Assembly (NCBI GenBank): GCA_903835255.1
Contig: CAILMI010000012.1
Coordinates: forward strand, 62,001-126,000
DNA from: an uncultured Verrucomicrobia subdivision 3 bacterium
GTDB taxonomy: Bacteria; Verrucomicrobiota; Verrucomicrobiia; Limisphaerales; UBA11358
DNA length: 64,000 nucleotides
Reading direction: 5' to 3'
In this document: piece by piece, positions 18,439-44,408 of the stretch
How positions within the stretch are numbered: the first letter of the stretch is position 1
Layout: the number at the start of each line of letters is the position of its first letter
The notes under the pieces: model-generated
Database searches by the model: none
The model's input: only the letters and a program-made list of their open reading frames with translations
What the model was told of the DNA's origin: nothing
Translations under genes and position numbers: made by a program

Positions 18439-21400
18439 TTACTGTTGCAGGCGGTAGAAATTCTGTGTCGCCCCGTTGAGGATGGGATTGGTGAAGAGGA
18501 ACCCGCCGTTCGCATCAAACTGATTGGTGGCGATGCGCAGCCAGTTGGTGAGGGGCGTGGTGAGATTAGTGGCAGCCAGCACATAGTAATTAAGGAAGGG
18601 CGTGCCATTGCTGCCGCTGAAAACCAGCTGGGAGCCGTCGAGGCGGATGTTCCCAAAAGTCGGCGGCGCATCGATCGACACGACCAGCTTCACGGTGCCG
18701 GGTGTGTTGGTATTAAAGCTGTATTGATAGCCGGCGGGTGCAGTGGTGAGCACGAAGTTGCCCAAATTAAGCGAGCCGCTGCAGGTGAATAGCGTGTAGG
18801 TGCCTGCACCGAAACCGGCGGTGTTTGTCACCTGCAATAAGCCGGCGAGCACGAGGTTGCCCCCTACAACAACGCGGTCGCTGCTGGCGCCCAGGGCAAA
18901 TTTCAAAACCGAGCTCTCATTCAAGGTGAGGCTGTTAGTGAAGGTCAGCGCGCCGAAAGGGTCGCCGGGCGCCAGGGTGGCGCCCCCGTCCAGGGTGGTG
19001 GCGCTGCCGATGATGCCGGCGCCAGAAAGGGTGGCCCCCGTGAAAATTTCCAGGTCGCCCGTGCCGGTGCCGCTTCCGGTGGGGGTGTTCACGCATAAGG
19101 TGCCGCTCTCCACGGTGAGGCCGCCGGTGAAGGTGCTCGCACCGCCTAAGGTCAATTTTCCGCTGCCGGTCTTGGTGGCGCCGGTTTCGCTGCCCGCCAC
19201 GGCAGAGTTGCTGCTGATATTGCCGTTGAAAAGGGAATCAGAATGATTGCCGCCGAGGATATAGAGCGTATCGCCGCTGCCGGCATTGGACTGCGGCCCC
19301 GCCAAAGTGCCGGAGCCGGTGAGCGTGCCGATCTGAATGGTATTGCCCGCGTCGCGCGGTTGCAGCGTGCCGTCCACCTGCATCACGGGCGACAACGATC
19401 CAAACGTGTTGCCGGTGGAATCGGAGGAATAACGCAGGGCGCTGCTGAAGGGGATGTGGAGCGTGCCGTGGAAATTGTCAAACTGGGCAGAGGTGGTGCC
19501 GCTGAAGCTGACGCCGCTGACGATATTCAAAGTGCTGTTTGTATTGCCGGAGTAAAGCGGCCCTGAAATGTTATAAGCCAATCCGCCGGCGGTGAGATTG
19601 CCGGCGGTGTTCGGGGCAACGGTGATGGAGCCTCCGTAATAAACTGCGGCACCACTTAAGGGCAGCGAAAACGTCCCGTTATTGCTGAGGGTCATCGAGC
19701 TGGAGCCGATGGAGCTGCCGCTGCCCAGCACGAGCGTGCCGCCAAAAATATTGACCCCTCCGGCGAAGGAGCTGTTGGTGTTGGCAATCGTCAGCGTGCT
19801 GCTGCCGAGCTTGGTAAGCGCGCCCCCGCCGGTGAGCGCGCTGCCACTGAATGTATAATTCTGCGACGAGTTGACGGTGATCGAGGCGGGGGAGACAGGC
19901 GCGGGCAAAGTGACGTTTGCCGCGTTGGATCCGGTGTCGTCGAACAGGACGGCATCGAGGTTGTAGAAGGTACCGGGCGTGGAGCCGTTCGCCCAGTTCA
20001 CCGTGCTGGTGTCCCAGTTTGCGCCCTGGGTGCCGCGCCACACGAGGCTCGCCGCATTGCCGGCGACGACCAGGCGCACATAAGACGGATTGCTGCCCGC
20101 CGGCGGGCATACGAGTGAAAATGTCTGACGGGTGGAGCTGGGTAGGTTGTGAACGAGCGAGACGCTGGAGGCGGTGGAATTCGTCGCGCCTTCAATCAGT
20201 CCGTAGGTTCCTGCGCTGAGGGCAAATTCGGTGAGGTTGAAATAAAAATTCTGAGCGCCGGACATCGCCAGCGTGCCGGAGAGATGGATGCGGTCGTTGG
20301 TGCCCGTGGGCGAAGCCGAGAGGTCAAAACACATTGCGGGTGCGGCATTCGTCAGGTGCCCGGCGATGGTGAGAGTGCCGATGCTGCCGGCGCCGTGTGC
20401 ACCGGGCGCCAAGATGCCGCCGGACCGAATGGTGACCGGGTTAGTGATGACGCCGCTGCCGCCGAGCGTGGCGCTTGTGTAAACAGTGGTGAGCGAAGGG
20501 GTGAGGGTGCCGTTGATGAGCAGCATGCCGGCAGCAACGGTGTTGGTGCCGGTGAAGGTGTTATTGCCCGTCAACGTGAGTCGTCCGGTGCCGGTCTTGA
20601 TAAGGCAGGTCGGGTTGGTATTGATTAAAGCGTCGGTGATGGTGCCGGTGAAGGTGGAATCCGTATTGTTGCCGCCGATGTTATAAAGGACGTTACCCAC
20701 GCCCCCGTTTGCAGCATCTTTTTCCTGACCGGTGAGGGTGCCGGCACCCGAGATGGATCCAAGCAGAAGTGTGCTGCCGCCCATGCGCGGTTTAACGGTG
20801 CCGTTTACTGTAAAGCTGGGAACCAAAGCCCCGAAGGTGGTGCCGTTGGTGGTGGAGACAAAGCGAAGCGTGGCATTGGGTTGGATTTGAATAGTGCCCA
20901 AAAAACCGCCGAACTGGCTTGCGGGAGCACCGGCAAAACTCACGGAGTTGCTCACGTTCAGCACCGAGTTGGTGCTGCTGGTTGAAACCGCGCCGTTGAA
21001 CGAGGTGGAAAGTTGGCCGGAGGAAATTGTGACAGTGTCTCCTGGCGAAACCGTGATTGGCCCGCTGATGGTTGAACCGCTGCCGCCGCCCTGCACTTCA
21101 AAAGTGCTGCCATCCGCCAGCACGATGCTGCCTGAACCGAGATTTGCCCCAGAAGAGAGCGATACTTTACCGTCGCGGATATTTACCGTTCCCGAAAGAC
21201 TATTAGTGGTGCCGATGGAGAGAGTGCCGGTGCCAGATTTGATCAAAGATCCGGAGCCGCTCCATGAGCCGCTGCCGGTGATGGTGTAATCCCGCCTGTG
21301 GCTAAATAGCAGCGCGCCGGGCGACAGCGCGCCAGAAACCAGGATGGCGGGCGTGTTCGAGCCGGTGTCATCCAGCGTCGCTACGTCATTGTTTTTGAAC

Positions 21401-23166
21401 GCAGCCAATCGGGTGCCGTTAAACCAGTTTGAAGCCGTCGTGTTCCACGCATTTGAGGCGCCGTCGCCGCGCCAAGTCAGGTTTGCTGGCTGCGGTGCAG
21501 ATGCGGTCGCCACGGTCACGCCGATGAGCGTGCCATTGAAAGCGGCTGTGCTTGAGGGCGGCGCGACGGGGGTGACGCAGACCGTGACTGCAACGATCAA
21601 GCTGTAGCTGCCTTCCGTGACGTTGAAATTAAAACTGCCGAGGCCGGAGAAGTTTGCAGTCGGGGTAAATACCGCATTCGTTCCGTTGATCAGCGAAACG
21701 GTGCCGTTCGTTGCATTGGTCAGGCTGAAGGTGGCGCTGGCTGCAAATCCCCCGGCGAATTGGCTGAGGTTGACCGTCACCGTCGAATTGCTCTGCGTGA
21801 CGGCGTGCGGGGCGGCAAGGAAATTCAAATAGTTTTCCAGCAGCGTGTAGCCGGTCAAGGTGTTCGTCAGCGGGTTGGCGGCGTTGGGATTGGAACCGGT
21901 GGCCAGTTCCCAGTAATCCGGCATGCCGTCATTATCGGCATCCGTCAGCGCCGTCAGGCCTGCCAGAGTGCCATAGCCGTTATTGCCCAAACCGGTCTGG
22001 GCCTGGCTGGTATACAGTCCGCCACCCGGACCCGCGGTGCCGGATCCGGTGCCGGTGGTGCCGGACCCGAGCGTTTTCATCTGACTGATGACGAGCGCGT
22101 CCACTTCGTCGCGTGGAAAGGCACCGGCGGCAGAAATACCATAGCGCCAAGCCAGGGCGGGAGACATCGTCGGGATGATTGAGGTCCAAGAGGACCACGG
22201 CGCGCTCAAAATCGTCCCGCCGCCTTGATAGCCGGGCAGAGGAGCCGTGGTGCTGCCGCCAAGGATCCCGTTCTTATCCGAGTCGTTCAGATTCCCCGTG
22301 AAATAAATGCTTTGGTTGTTGTCCATCTGATACCACGGGAAATTTCCGCCGCTGGCGGGCCCCCAAACAAAATAATTATTCACGATATCGTGTTTGAACT
22401 TGGTGCTGGTGTGCGTGGTGTACCCGGCAGAATTGTTGTATTCGATATTATTGATGAAGACATTGTTCACCTTCGCGAGCGGGTTGCGATTGTGGGAATT
22501 GGCAAAAATGTTGTAGCACCAAGTCCAGTCACTGCTCACCGATTCGGTGTGGGCGCCGAACTGCTGGCCGGTGGGGTTGGCGTTGATGCAATGCTGAAAC
22601 GTAATGTCGGTCACGGGTGTGGTCTGCCAGGCGGTGCTGACCGCGCCGACGTTGTTCCAGGGCGCAAAAGCGATGGAGCAGTGGTCGAAAATCATGGCGC
22701 GCCCGTTGGCAAAGGCAATGGCATCATCCGTGGAAGAGGCAGTGTCGCTCCCGGGTCGGATGCGGATGAAGCGGCAGATGATATTGCTGCGGCTGGAGAA
22801 GGAGATTTCGCCGCCGTCAAATTTGATGCCGCCCGGGGCCGTCTGGCCGGCGATGGTGAGATTGCCCTTGGCGGAAACGGCCGTGAGCAGTTTGATGGTT
22901 CCTCCCACATCAAAAACAATGGTGCGGCTTGAGGAGCTGACGGCGTCGCGGAACGAGCCCGGGCCGCTGTCCGCAAGCGTGGTGACATGATAAACCGTCC
23001 CGTTGCGCCCGCCGGTGGTGTAGGCGCCAAAACCCAGAGCCCCGGGGAAGGCGATGGTTTGTGACCGGGCGGCGGGGGCGAGGGAGAAAAGAGACGCTCC
23101 CAGGAACGCTAGAAAGAGCAAGCCGAGACGGGCTCGGAAAGGGCTTGGGCCACAGGGCGGAAACAT
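18439..23166 (-). CDS. Giant secreted protein: pectate-lyase-like N-terminus plus autotransporter-associated beta-strand repeats
   Basis: 1575 residues with a signal peptide (about 1-35, LLFLAFLGASLFSLAPAARSQ). Residues about 36-380 resemble polysaccharide lyase family 1-like parallel beta-helix proteins (FPGALGFGAYTTGGRNG, VTTLADSGPGSFRDAV, DDAIAFANGRAMIFDHCSIA). A D-x-D-x-D-G calcium-type motif (ALTDADNDGMPDYWE) lies near 405-415 and an Ig/cadherin-like stretch near 455-540. Two homologous blocks starting WRGDGASNAW (about 563) and WRGTQGANW (about 1043) carry many LTKxGxGTLTL-type strands, the autotransporter-associated repeat. The last about 75 residues (NYYVLAATNLTTPLTNWLRIATNQFD ending NFYRLQQ) look like a sorting domain; no beta-barrel is present. 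Its role in polysaccharide binding or cleavage is inferred. Confidence 0.85.
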   Translation of the reverse strand: MFPPCGPSPFRARLGLLFLAFLGASLFSLAPAARSQTIAFPGALGFGAYTTGGRNGTVYHVTTLADSGPGSFRDAVSSSSRTIVFDVGGTIKLLTAVSAKGNLTIAGQTAPGGIKFDGGEISFSSRSNIICRFIRIRPGSDTASSTDDAIAFANGRAMIFDHCSIAFAPWNNVGAVSTAWQTTPVTDITFQHCINANPTGQQFGAHTESVSSDWTWCYNIFANSHNRNPLAKVNNVFINNIEYNNSAGYTTHTSTKFKHDIVNNYFVWGPASGGNFPWYQMDNNQSIYFTGNLNDSDKNGILGGSTTAPLPGYQGGGTILSAPWSSWTSIIPTMSPALAWRYGISAAGAFPRDEVDALVISQMKTLGSGTTGTGSGTAGPGGGLYTSQAQTGLGNNGYGTLAGLTALTDADNDGMPDYWELATGSNPNAANPLTNTLTGYTLLENYLNFLAAPHAVTQSNSTVTVNLSQFAGGFAASATFSLTNATNGTVSLINGTNAVFTPTANFSGLGSFNFNVTEGSYSLIVAVTVCVTPVAPPSSTAAFNGTLIGVTVATASAPQPANLTWRGDGASNAWNTTASNWFNGTRLAAFKNNDVATLDDTGSNTPAILVSGALSPGALLFSHRRDYTITGSGSWSGSGSLIKSGTGTLSIGTTNSLSGTVNIRDGKVSLSSGANLGSGSIVLADGSTFEVQGGGSGSTISGPITVSPGDTVTISSGQLSTSFNGAVSTSSTNSVLNVSNSVSFAGAPASQFGGFLGTIQIQPNATLRFVSTTNGTTFGALVPSFTVNGTVKPRMGGSTLLLGSISGAGTLTGQEKDAANGGVGNVLYNIGGNNTDSTFTGTITDALINTNPTCLIKTGTGRLTLTGNNTFTGTNTVAAGMLLINGTLTPSLTTVYTSATLGGSGVITNPVTIRSGGILAPGAHGAGSIGTLTIAGHLTNAAPAMCFDLSASPTGTNDRIHLSGTLAMSGAQNFYFNLTEFALSAGTYGLIEGATNSTASSVSLVHNLPSSTRQTFSLVCPPAGSNPSYVRLVVAGNAASLVWRGTQGANWDTSTVNWANGSTPGTFYNLDAVLFDDTGSNAANVTLPAPVSPASITVNSSQNYTFSGSALTGGGALTKLGSSTLTIANTNSSFAGGVNIFGGTLVLGSGSSIGSSSMTLSNNGTFSLPLSGAAVYYGGSITVAPNTAGNLTAGGLAYNISGPLYSGNTNSTLNIVSGVSFSGTTSAQFDNFHGTLHIPFSSALRYSSDSTGNTFGSLSPVMQVDGTLQPRDAGNTIQIGTLTGSGTLAGPQSNAGSGDTLYILGGNHSDSLFNGNISSNSAVAGSETGATKTGSGKLTLGGASTFTGGLTVESGTLCVNTPTGSGTGTGDLEIFTGATLSGAGIIGSATTLDGGATLAPGDPFGALTFTNSLTLNESSVLKFALGASSDRVVVGGNLVLAGLLQVTNTAGFGAGTYTLFTCSGSLNLGNFVLTTAPAGYQYSFNTNTPGTVKLVVSIDAPPTFGNIRLDGSQLVFSGSNGTPFLNYYVLAATNLTTPLTNWLRIATNQFDANGGFLFTNPILNGATQNFYRLQQ

Positions 23167-41413: not shown

Positions 41414-42811
41414 ATGTTTTCCTCAGAAATTAAATCGGTTCACTTTGTTGGCATCGGCGGCACGGCTATGGCGTCCGCTGCCGCCGCCATGCATGACAAG
41501 GGCTTTCTGGTCACCGGCTCTGACCAGAATGTCTATGAGCCGATGGCGTCGTTCCTGGCCGCCAAAAAAATCGCAGTGATGAACGGCTACGACGAAAAAA
41601 ATCTGGCGCATCAGCCCGACCTCGTCGTCATCGGCAATGCCATCTCTCGCGGGAATCCCGAGGCGGAGCATGTCCTCGATCACAAGAAGCGCTACACGTC
41701 GCTGGCGGCCCTGCTGGCGGAGTTTTTCATCCGGGGCCGTCGCGCGCTGGTGGTCAGCGGCACGCACGGCAAGACCACCACCGCGTCCCTGCTTGCCTGG
41801 GTATTCGAGCACAGCGGCCTGAACCCCAGCTTCCTCATCGGCGGCATCCCGGCCAATTTTGGACAGGGGGCGCGCTTCACCGACAGCGACTGGTTCGTCA
41901 TCGAGGGCGACGAATACGACACGGCCTTCTTCGACAAGCGGAGCAAGTTCATCCATTACCAGCCGGAGGTGGCCATCATCAACAACCTGGAGTTCGACCA
42001 CGCGGATATTTTTGAGGATCTCAGCGCGGTCAAAAAAACCTTCTCGCACTTCATCCGTCTGGTGCCGCGCAACGGCCTGCTACTGGGCAATGGCGATGAC
42101 CCGAACCTTGCGCCGCTGCTCAACGTGACCCACTGTCCGGTCAAGCGCTTTGGTCTGGGAAACGATTGCGCGGTGCAGGCTTTCAATGCCCGTTACGGCC
42201 CGACCGCGACGGAATTCGAAATCCCGAGCTTCACGTTCCATATCAATCTCGTCGGCGAACTGAATCTGCGGAATGCCCTGGCCGTGGTCGCCTGCGCCAA
42301 GCACTGCGGCCTGTCGAACAAGCAGATCCAGTCGGCCTTCGACACCTTCCGGGGCATCAAGCGCCGGATGGAGGTGCGCGGCATCGCGGGCGGGGTGACC
42401 TTGATCGATGATTTCGGCCATCACCCGACCGCCCTCCGTGAAACGCTCAAGGCCTTGCGCATCAAATATCCGCTCCAGAAAATCTGGGCCGTTTTTGAGC
42501 CGCGCTCCAATACGACGCGCCGGAATGTTTTTCAGGCCGAGCTGGCAGAGGCCTTCGCCGACGCCAACGCGGTGGTGGTCGCCGAAGTCGCCCGCCTCGA
42601 GCAAATCAGCGTCGATGAGCGACTCGACCCCGAAAGGCTGATGCGGGACCTCAAGGCAGCTGGCAAGGAGGCTGCCTACTTGCCGGACACGGACGCGATC
42701 GTGGCTCATCTCGCCAAAAACGCCCGCGGCGGGGATATTGTCTGCGTCTTCAGCAATGGCGGCTTCGGCGGGATTCATGGAAAGCTCTTGAATCGGCTCG
42801 GCAGAGCGTGA
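41414..42811 (+). CDS. mpl: UDP-N-acetylmuramate:L-Ala-gamma-D-Glu-meso-DAP ligase
   Basis: Start ATG at 41414 (MFSSEIKSVHFVGIGGTAMA), 465 residues; a 12-codon upstream extension is less likely. It re-uses recycled murein tripeptide by joining it to UDP-MurNAc. VHFVGIGGTAMASAAAAM is the N-terminal UDP-binding domain. GTHGKTTT (116-123) is the ATP loop, DEYDTAFFDKRSKF is the Mpl-type central motif and NNLEFDHADIFEDL follows. DDFGHHPTALRETL is the C-terminal domain motif, with DFGHHP diagnostic for Mpl over MurC. It is a single gene downstream of the inverted-repeat element. Confidence 0.95.
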   Translation: MFSSEIKSVHFVGIGGTAMASAAAAMHDKGFLVTGSDQNVYEPMASFLAAKKIAVMNGYDEKNLAHQPDLVVIGNAISRGNPEAEHVLDHKKRYTSLAALLAEFFIRGRRALVVSGTHGKTTTASLLAWVFEHSGLNPSFLIGGIPANFGQGARFTDSDWFVIEGDEYDTAFFDKRSKFIHYQPEVAIINNLEFDHADIFEDLSAVKKTFSHFIRLVPRNGLLLGNGDDPNLAPLLNVTHCPVKRFGLGNDCAVQAFNARYGPTATEFEIPSFTFHINLVGELNLRNALAVVACAKHCGLSNKQIQSAFDTFRGIKRRMEVRGIAGGVTLIDDFGHHPTALRETLKALRIKYPLQKIWAVFEPRSNTTRRNVFQAELAEAFADANAVVVAEVARLEQISVDERLDPERLMRDLKAAGKEAAYLPDTDAIVAHLAKNARGGDIVCVFSNGGFGGIHGKLLNRLGRA

Positions 42812-42833
42812 CCCCCTGAGAGGCATGCTTTTC

Positions 42834-42850
42834 TGGCACATGAATTGCAT
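42834..42850 (+). promoter_or_regulatory. Sigma-54 (RpoN) promoter
   Basis: TGGCAC (42834-42839), five bases, TTGCAT (42845-42850): a full match to the -24/-12 consensus TGGCAC-N5-TTGCW, with GG and GC at the required spacing. The predicted transcription start is about 42860, two bases before the ATG of a 73-codon ORF. No enhancer-binding site could be identified by eye upstream, which lies within the end of mpl. Confidence 0.75.
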
Positions 42851-42861
42851 CTCTTCTGGGC

Positions 42862-43083
42862 ATGGCAAAAAAAATAAATGCGTTGCGGCTGGCGCAATTG
42901 TCCCGCGGACATGCCGAAATCACGAATCGCCGGATTGCTGCGGTTTCGCCCGCCCTCTATCTCATGCAGTTGCGGCTTCCGAGGTTGAGGATTCCCTTGC
43001 CGGCCCAAAAACTGCTGGTGACTGGCGAGTCTTCAGACCGGGCCCAGGTCGAGTGCGCAGTCAGGATTAGACACATCGCCTGA
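42862..43083 (+). CDS. Small ORF directly downstream of a sigma-54 promoter
   Basis: 73 residues beginning MAKKINALRLAQLSRGHAEI. Basic and moderately hydrophobic in the middle (LYLMQLRLPRLRIPLPAQKLLV), with no signal peptide and one cysteine. It matches no family I know. The support is positional: its ATG falls within about two bases of the start predicted for the sigma-54 promoter, so it would be read from a leaderless message. It could equally be a chance ORF within a regulatory RNA. The following stretch to 43280 has no gene that I can see. Confidence 0.45.
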   Translation: MAKKINALRLAQLSRGHAEITNRRIAAVSPALYLMQLRLPRLRIPLPAQKLLVTGESSDRAQVECAVRIRHIA

Positions 43084-43280
43084 AATCAGGACAACGGGAT
43101 GGGGGCTGTTTCTTTCTCAAGTTGCCCCACCTCGAACCCCGTCGGGCACAGCTCCTAATTTGCCTTTCAATCCGGTGATGGGGCGGATCACTTCCTGGAT
43201 CCCAGCTCGCGCCTAAGCATAGGGCCGGGTTACAGGCTTTCCCAAAAGCGGCCGAGCCGTTATGTTTTGCCCCGGATTTT

Positions 43281-44408
43281 ATGCCGCAACCGAAAATCAA
43301 TCGCACCGCCCTCCCGGCGACCCTTGGCTACCGCATGCCGGCCGAATGGGAAAAGCACCAGGCGACCTGGCTTGGCTGGCCCCACAATGCCAGCGACTGG
43401 CCCGGTAAGTTTGAGGTGATCCCGTGGGTCTATGGCGAGATGGTCCGGAACATCTCCGCCGGCGAAAAAGTGAATCTGCTCGTCCGGCACGCGGCCGACG
43501 AAAAACAGGCCCGCCGCATTTTTAAGCACGTCGGCGTGGACCTCCGAAAAATCCGTTTTGTCACGCATCCGACCAATCGCGGCTGGACGCGCGACACCGG
43601 CCCGCTGTTCATCCGGCGCGAGCGCCCGGGCGCCCGGTCCCGGCCCGTCGCAACCGAGACCGACATTGTCCATTTTCATTTCAATGGCTGGGCCAAATAT
43701 GACAACTGGCGCAAGGACACCCGGGTGCCCGAGACCGCCGCGCGTCTGCTGGGCAAAACGCTGTTCCACGCCGAGTGCCGGCGGGCCGGTTCCCCCCGCA
43801 CTCCCCCGCAGCCCTTCGTGATAGAGGGCGGCGGCATTGAGGTCAACGGACGCGGCACCCTGATCTCGACTGAGGAATGCTATCTGCATCCGAAAATCCA
43901 GGTGCGCAACCCCGGCTTGGGCAAGGCGGAGATCGAGGCGACGCTCAAAAACTATCTCGGCGTCACCCACATCTTCTGGCTGGCCAAGGGCCCGAAAGGC
44001 GATGACACCCACGGTCACATCGACGACATCTGTCGTTTTGTGAATGCAAAAACGCTGGTGTTGGTCCGGGAGAAAAATCCCCGGGACGAGAATTACCGGC
44101 CGCTGGCGGAAAACTGGGACCGGATTCAGGATTTGAGGCTTGAAAATGGCACCCGGCCTGAAGTTGTGGAGCTGCCCATGCCGGGACCGCTGTATTTCGA
44201 CGGCGTGCGGCTGCCGGCCAGCTACGCGAACTTTTATATCTGCAACGCGGCCGTCATCGTTCCGACCTTCAATGACCCAAACGATCGCGTGGCCCTGGGG
44301 ATTTTAGGCGACCTGTTCCGCGACCGGCCCGTGGTCGGCATCCACGCCGTGGATCTGGTCTGGGGCTTCGGCTCTCTGCACTGCCTCACACAGCAGCAGC
44401 CGGCATAA
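43281..44408 (+). CDS. aguA: Agmatine deiminase family protein
   Basis: 375 residues, guanidino-modifying fold. MPAEWEKHQATWLGWPHNASDW opens the family. NRGWTRDTGPLFI carries the substrate-binding Asp, FVIEGGGIEVNGRGTLISTEECYL follows, and GDDTHGHIDDICRFV holds the catalytic His. The nucleophile is Cys368 in GSLHCLTQQ near the C-terminus. Agmatine deiminase makes N-carbamoylputrescine on the way to putrescine; the same fold includes peptidyl-arginine deiminases of the Porphyromonas type, but length and motifs favour agmatine. It is a single gene on its strand, followed by the GHL10-like gene. Confidence 0.9.
   Translation: MPQPKINRTALPATLGYRMPAEWEKHQATWLGWPHNASDWPGKFEVIPWVYGEMVRNISAGEKVNLLVRHAADEKQARRIFKHVGVDLRKIRFVTHPTNRGWTRDTGPLFIRRERPGARSRPVATETDIVHFHFNGWAKYDNWRKDTRVPETAARLLGKTLFHAECRRAGSPRTPPQPFVIEGGGIEVNGRGTLISTEECYLHPKIQVRNPGLGKAEIEATLKNYLGVTHIFWLAKGPKGDDTHGHIDDICRFVNAKTLVLVREKNPRDENYRPLAENWDRIQDLRLENGTRPEVVELPMPGPLYFDGVRLPASYANFYICNAAVIVPTFNDPNDRVALGILGDLFRDRPVVGIHAVDLVWGFGSLHCLTQQQPA

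Follow-up and report, generated by a model that had tools for sequence, protein, structure and literature searches.

A conserved small gene behind a sigma-54-type promoter in Limisphaerales and its predicted leaderless message in one genus

The locus described here lies in the window, by which we mean the whole 64-kb stretch of DNA that was analyzed. The gene mpl (positions 41414 to 42811, forward strand) encodes a UDP-N-acetylmuramate:tripeptide ligase (NCBIfam TIGR01081, above cut-off); it is placed outside the unit and serves as a marker of the locus within the genus. It is followed on the same strand by a sigma-54 -24/-12 element (42834 to 42848), which matches TGGCAC-N5-TTGC in all ten specified bases, continues with AT to TGGCAC-N5-TTGCAT (42834 to 42850, TGGCACATGAATTGCAT) and is situated about 24 nt 5' of an ATG. 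The distance from GG to GC is 10 bp, as in sigma-54 promoters, and this is the only exact match to TGGCAC-N5-TTGC in the window. With the C of the -12 GC at position 42848, transcription is predicted to start at position 42860 (within ±1–3 nt, deduced from the spacing), which would place a leader of 2 nt (42860 to 42861, forward strand) in front of the ATG at 42862. Both the complete element and a start at about 42860, two bases ahead of the 73-codon ORF, had been proposed in the sequence-only reading, and the positions agree. The ORF itself (42862 to 43083, forward strand) encodes a basic protein of 73 residues with a mass of 8.2 kDa and a pI of 11.7. Downstream, an agmatine deiminase-like gene (PF04371; 43281 to 44408, forward strand) follows, which scored below the cut-offs of the agmatine deiminase equivalogs.

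The consensus is not enriched genome-wide: its bare form occurred at 6 sites against 6 for the reversed control, and a looser form at 20 sites against 28. Both counts speak against our preferred reading, so that the site alone was no proof of function and conservation had to decide. Relatives of the ORF were sought by a protein search in 59 related genomes and by a profile search across the order (Verrucomicrobia subdivision 3), for which 320 genomes were covered; one of the relatives (L001) belongs to an uncultured Verrucomicrobia subdivision 3 bacterium. The profile matched at one place each in 55 of the 320 genomes. Its weakest match, in genome G007, contains an internal stop and is no real member; a gene of the subfamily B described below was found elsewhere in the same genome. 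Among 384 genomes of the class, the search outside the order returned only three marginal matches, each interrupted by stops. Within the genus of the window the small gene is carried by 32 of 49 genomes (12 with the first type and 20 with subfamily B), and in the other 17 no member was detected by the searches used, which was counted against the preferred reading.

For the comparison of the promoters, the 75 nt upstream of the start codon were scanned at 53 loci for the best GG-N10-GC element, with 10,158 segments from the same 53 loci as controls. At least eight of the ten consensus bases were present at 49 of the 53 loci versus 125 of the 10,158 control segments, at least nine at 40 loci (12 control segments) and all ten at 18 loci (no control segment); the 53 loci are mutually related and therefore not independent trials, and they span many families with differing upstream genes. 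At one locus (G024) the GG and GC are 9 bp apart, an exception that weighs on the negative side. Conservation of promoter and ORF in relatives, which had been named beforehand as a check, was thus borne out. In a search that started from the promoter, the pattern TGGCAYRYGANNTGC followed by ATGGC after 8 to 28 nt was found at 37 sites in the 320 genomes, versus two for the reversed pattern. Thirty-four of these sites lay at family members, three of which (G002, G236 and G057) had been missed by the profile search; two sites belonged to other ORFs (G214 and G249), and the remaining one is situated on contig C141 of G084. A looser pattern with an RTG start yielded 95 matches in the genus versus 62 for the control, counted among the matches listed and with overlaps included, and 43 loci from this search were examined. 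A promoter arisen by chance was rejected on the comparison with the control segments and on the promoter-first counts. Since promoter and gene are kept as a pair in many related Verrucomicrobia, the gene is probably real.

The frame is open in all family members used. In pairs with appreciable divergence dN/dS amounted to 0.12–0.33; less favorable to the preferred reading are the values of 0.44–0.81 in very close pairs, with one exception of 0.27, and the median pN/pS of 0.62 within subfamily B (28 pairs). Judged by these ratios, the small ORF is protein-coding and the frame is under purifying selection, which is less pronounced among the closest pairs and within subfamily B. The product is small, strongly basic (median pI of 10.7–12.0 in the three groups compared) and devoid of an evident signal peptide, and many family members carry RRPAPRPP or RVPPR stretches. 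The ORF had been described as lacking known relatives; this is wrong for genomes but stands for Pfam, NCBIfam, PHROGs and the sequences of the PDB, where no family match was obtained. A phage origin was discarded after a comparison of 41 members with PHROGs, in which each family was hit by a single member at most. An AlphaFold model calculated from two sequences was too poor for use (pLDDT 54.4, pTM 0.19).

In 18 further genomes of the genus the promoter site precedes an ORF of 82–93 codons that starts with GTG and shows the same layout, with MA[KR]K at the start, RRRLPVT and then PV.IRH. These loci, together with those of G002 and G236, constitute subfamily B (20 loci), whose profile matched that of the first type with a probability of 95–96%. 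Most members of subfamily B start with GTG, and at 12 of the 20 loci mpl is the immediate upstream neighbor, as it is in the window.

Within the genus the distance from promoter to start codon is nearly fixed. Behind the C of the -12 GC, the start codon follows after 12–14 intervening nt at the 12 loci of the first type, and after 12 nt (19 loci) or 13 nt (one locus) in subfamily B, compared with 15–28 nt at 41 loci of other families. The bases between the -12 element and the start vary in the genus loci, their number stays constant. As the pattern used in the genome search for subfamily B allowed 7–20 nt, the constant 12 nt were not imposed by that search; the later spacing count took only gaps of 12–13 nt. 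Shine-Dalgarno-like tetramers were present at none of the 32 genus loci versus 18 of the 41 loci of other families. From the C at -12 and the gap of 12–14 nt, a 5' leader of 1–3 nt is predicted for all 32 genus loci, and we infer from this arrangement transcription, the exact start nucleotide and leaderless translation in the genus. The element corresponds to the -24/-12 promoters that work with enhancer-binding proteins, in its TGGCAC-N5-TTGC sequence, in the 10 bp between GG and GC and in the presence of RpoN and activators. It differs from the usual sigma-54 promoters in that only 12–14 nt separate the -12 region and the start codon, too few for a leader to fit in, and in that no upstream activator site was recognized at the loci compared. 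The predicted messages resemble leaderless mRNAs of Sinorhizobium meliloti (PMC3616915) in that they have no Shine-Dalgarno-like site and that their start codon would lie at or beside the RNA start, but the starts in S. meliloti were mapped, whereas those reported here are predicted and would be sigma-54 dependent. According to the same paper all leaderless mRNAs mapped in S. meliloti start with AUG, in contrast to the GTG of most subfamily-B members, a difference worth testing.

The neighborhood of the small gene changes across the order. The gene mpl lies directly upstream at 15 genus loci, in both subfamilies; besides mpl, other genes take this place in the genus of the window, and at 30 loci lptD is found upstream on the opposite strand. 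Downstream, a convergent DUF4230 gene occurs in many loci. No conserved block common to the compared loci was found that could represent an upstream activator site, and synonymous conservation at the 3' end of mpl, checked for the same reason, was raised only modestly. This negative outcome at the loci compared was likewise counted against the preferred reading. A conserved block, CTGCCAAG...GATTT with AGCTAA.CA.AA, is present between lptD and the small gene (e.g., L070, L071, L084 and L095). It was rejected as an activator site, as it recurs at lptD-linked loci and is absent from most loci of the window's genus; it is probably an element of the lptD side, belonging to the lptD promoter region. 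At several lptD-linked loci (L123, L124, L125, L126 and L127) a histidine kinase gene is located a few kb upstream. No activator-type regulator gene was recognized beside it, and the two copies of the kinase scanned resemble AtoS below the cut-off.

The machinery for sigma-54-dependent transcription is encoded widely: rpoN was present in 57 of the 59 relatives, and in the genome of the window (G000) the RpoN domain PF04552 was found on contig C20. The same genome encodes four strong PF00158 sigma-54 activators, all of which combine a receiver, an AAA+ and an HTH_8 domain. The gene of one of the four, an NtrC-type activator, lies on contig C47 of G000 (20542 to 22002, L128) and adjoins a gene that was named serA-like from its sequence. 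Orthologues with 77–87% identity occur in 42 of the 49 genus genomes, including that of the window, and this distribution makes the protein a candidate without amounting to proof; at low confidence, it may activate the promoter of the small gene. Three genomes that carry the small gene (G007, G010 and G014) gave no match to this activator at the cut-off, which was again counted against the preferred reading. For their regulator class, these orthologues are unusually conserved.

Further sigma-54-type elements were noticed in the course of this work. The gene of a GAF-domain enhancer-binding protein starts with GTG 12–13 nt behind its own -24/-12 element, TGGCACAYGCCTTGC (loci L247, L248, L249 and L208 in G001, G240, G009 and G015; of these copies, L249 was the one checked for its domains), an arrangement which suggests leaderless sigma-54 autoregulation from this element. 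A prepilin-like gene, named from sequence, has its GTG start 12 nt behind TGGCACATGACGTGC (L216 and L217 in G235 and G236). On contig C55 of G000 (166077 to 166572; L113, L199), TGGCACAAGTTTTGC is located 88 nt upstream of a small lipoprotein-like gene; this gene was rejected as a second conserved target, as its relative in G001 is devoid of the site.

Comparison of the genomes shows, on the level of sequence, a conserved promoter, a coding frame, a fixed spacing and the presence of RpoN and enhancer-binding proteins. We therefore regard it as highly probable that the locus harbors a conserved gene which depends on RpoN and encodes a small basic protein; in the genus of the window this gene would be leaderless. 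The same element might instead deliver a non-coding regulatory RNA with the ORF being incidental, and small sigma-54 transcripts of this size are known from other bacteria. We consider this very improbable: the open frame and the dN/dS of the diverged pairs speak against it, a 251-nt RNA beginning at the predicted start gave no better fold than shuffled sequences did (z-score 0.45), and matches to Rfam stayed far below the gathering score. Of the two products offered in the sequence-only reading for its sigma-54 promoter, the leaderless mini-ORF is upheld by promoter, spacing and frame, which are conserved together in many genomes, while the small RNA is disfavored by purifying selection and by the lack of a fold beyond that of shuffles.

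It would also be conceivable that the gene is real but is expressed by read-through from mpl, which ends 33–53 nt upstream on the same strand at 14 of the 15 mpl-linked loci, or from another promoter, the -24/-12 match being of minor importance. The promoter is kept, however, next to different upstream genes, including the lptD on the opposite strand at 30 loci, the genus loci lack a Shine-Dalgarno-like site, and a search of positions 42700 to 43400 found no sigma-70-like promoter, so that we judge this explanation unlikely. Hardly any probability is assigned to the ORF being a RAPP-type leader peptide through which translation arrest would control a gene downstream; the RRPAPRPP or RVPPR stretches of many members recall the RAPP-like ends known in arrest peptides (PMC12992588, as summarized there), but these stretches are internal instead of C-terminal and the usual downstream gene, DUF4230, is encoded on the opposite strand.

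For the RpoN-dependent small protein gene, the following course of events is proposed. RNA polymerase with RpoN would transcribe the gene from the -24/-12 element once an enhancer-binding ATPase is active, and in the genus the message, having no Shine-Dalgarno-like site, would be translated as a leaderless one. At a guess, and with low confidence, the product could be a small regulator that is induced by a signal and binds to RNA or to an acidic partner. The inactivating factor IF7 of cyanobacterial glutamine synthetase is a small basic inhibitor under a global regulator. Small size, high charge and control by a global regulator are shared with the small protein by analogy only; IF7 comes from another phylum, depends on another regulator and is not known to be related in sequence. 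Such small basic inhibitors make a role in nitrogen metabolism an alternative. With low confidence we favor a small regulator that is possibly tied to the envelope, on account of the neighbors mpl and lptD, which are weak evidence, and of a survey that ties sigma-54 to the bacterial exterior (PMC3162934).

In the titles and opening lines of abstracts of the literature, no description was found of this small gene or of a sigma-54 regulon or its targets in the order. As a tentative proposal, to which we give somewhat less than even chances, the small basic protein would belong to the core output of RpoN throughout the order Limisphaerales. In the course of evolution, one genus would have fused the starts of transcription and translation, so that sigma-54 activation would lead directly to a leaderless message. 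The gene would there be part of a small sigma-54 regulon of leaderless messages, to which in some species the enhancer-binding-protein gene and the prepilin-like gene would also belong. The small gene offers a testable RpoN target with a strongly conserved promoter in mostly uncultured bacteria in which RpoN is nearly universal. Its loci also form a natural series of shrinking distance between a sigma-54 promoter and the start codon: at one end stands a short leader of the ordinary kind, in many cases with a Shine-Dalgarno-like site, and at the other next to no leader.
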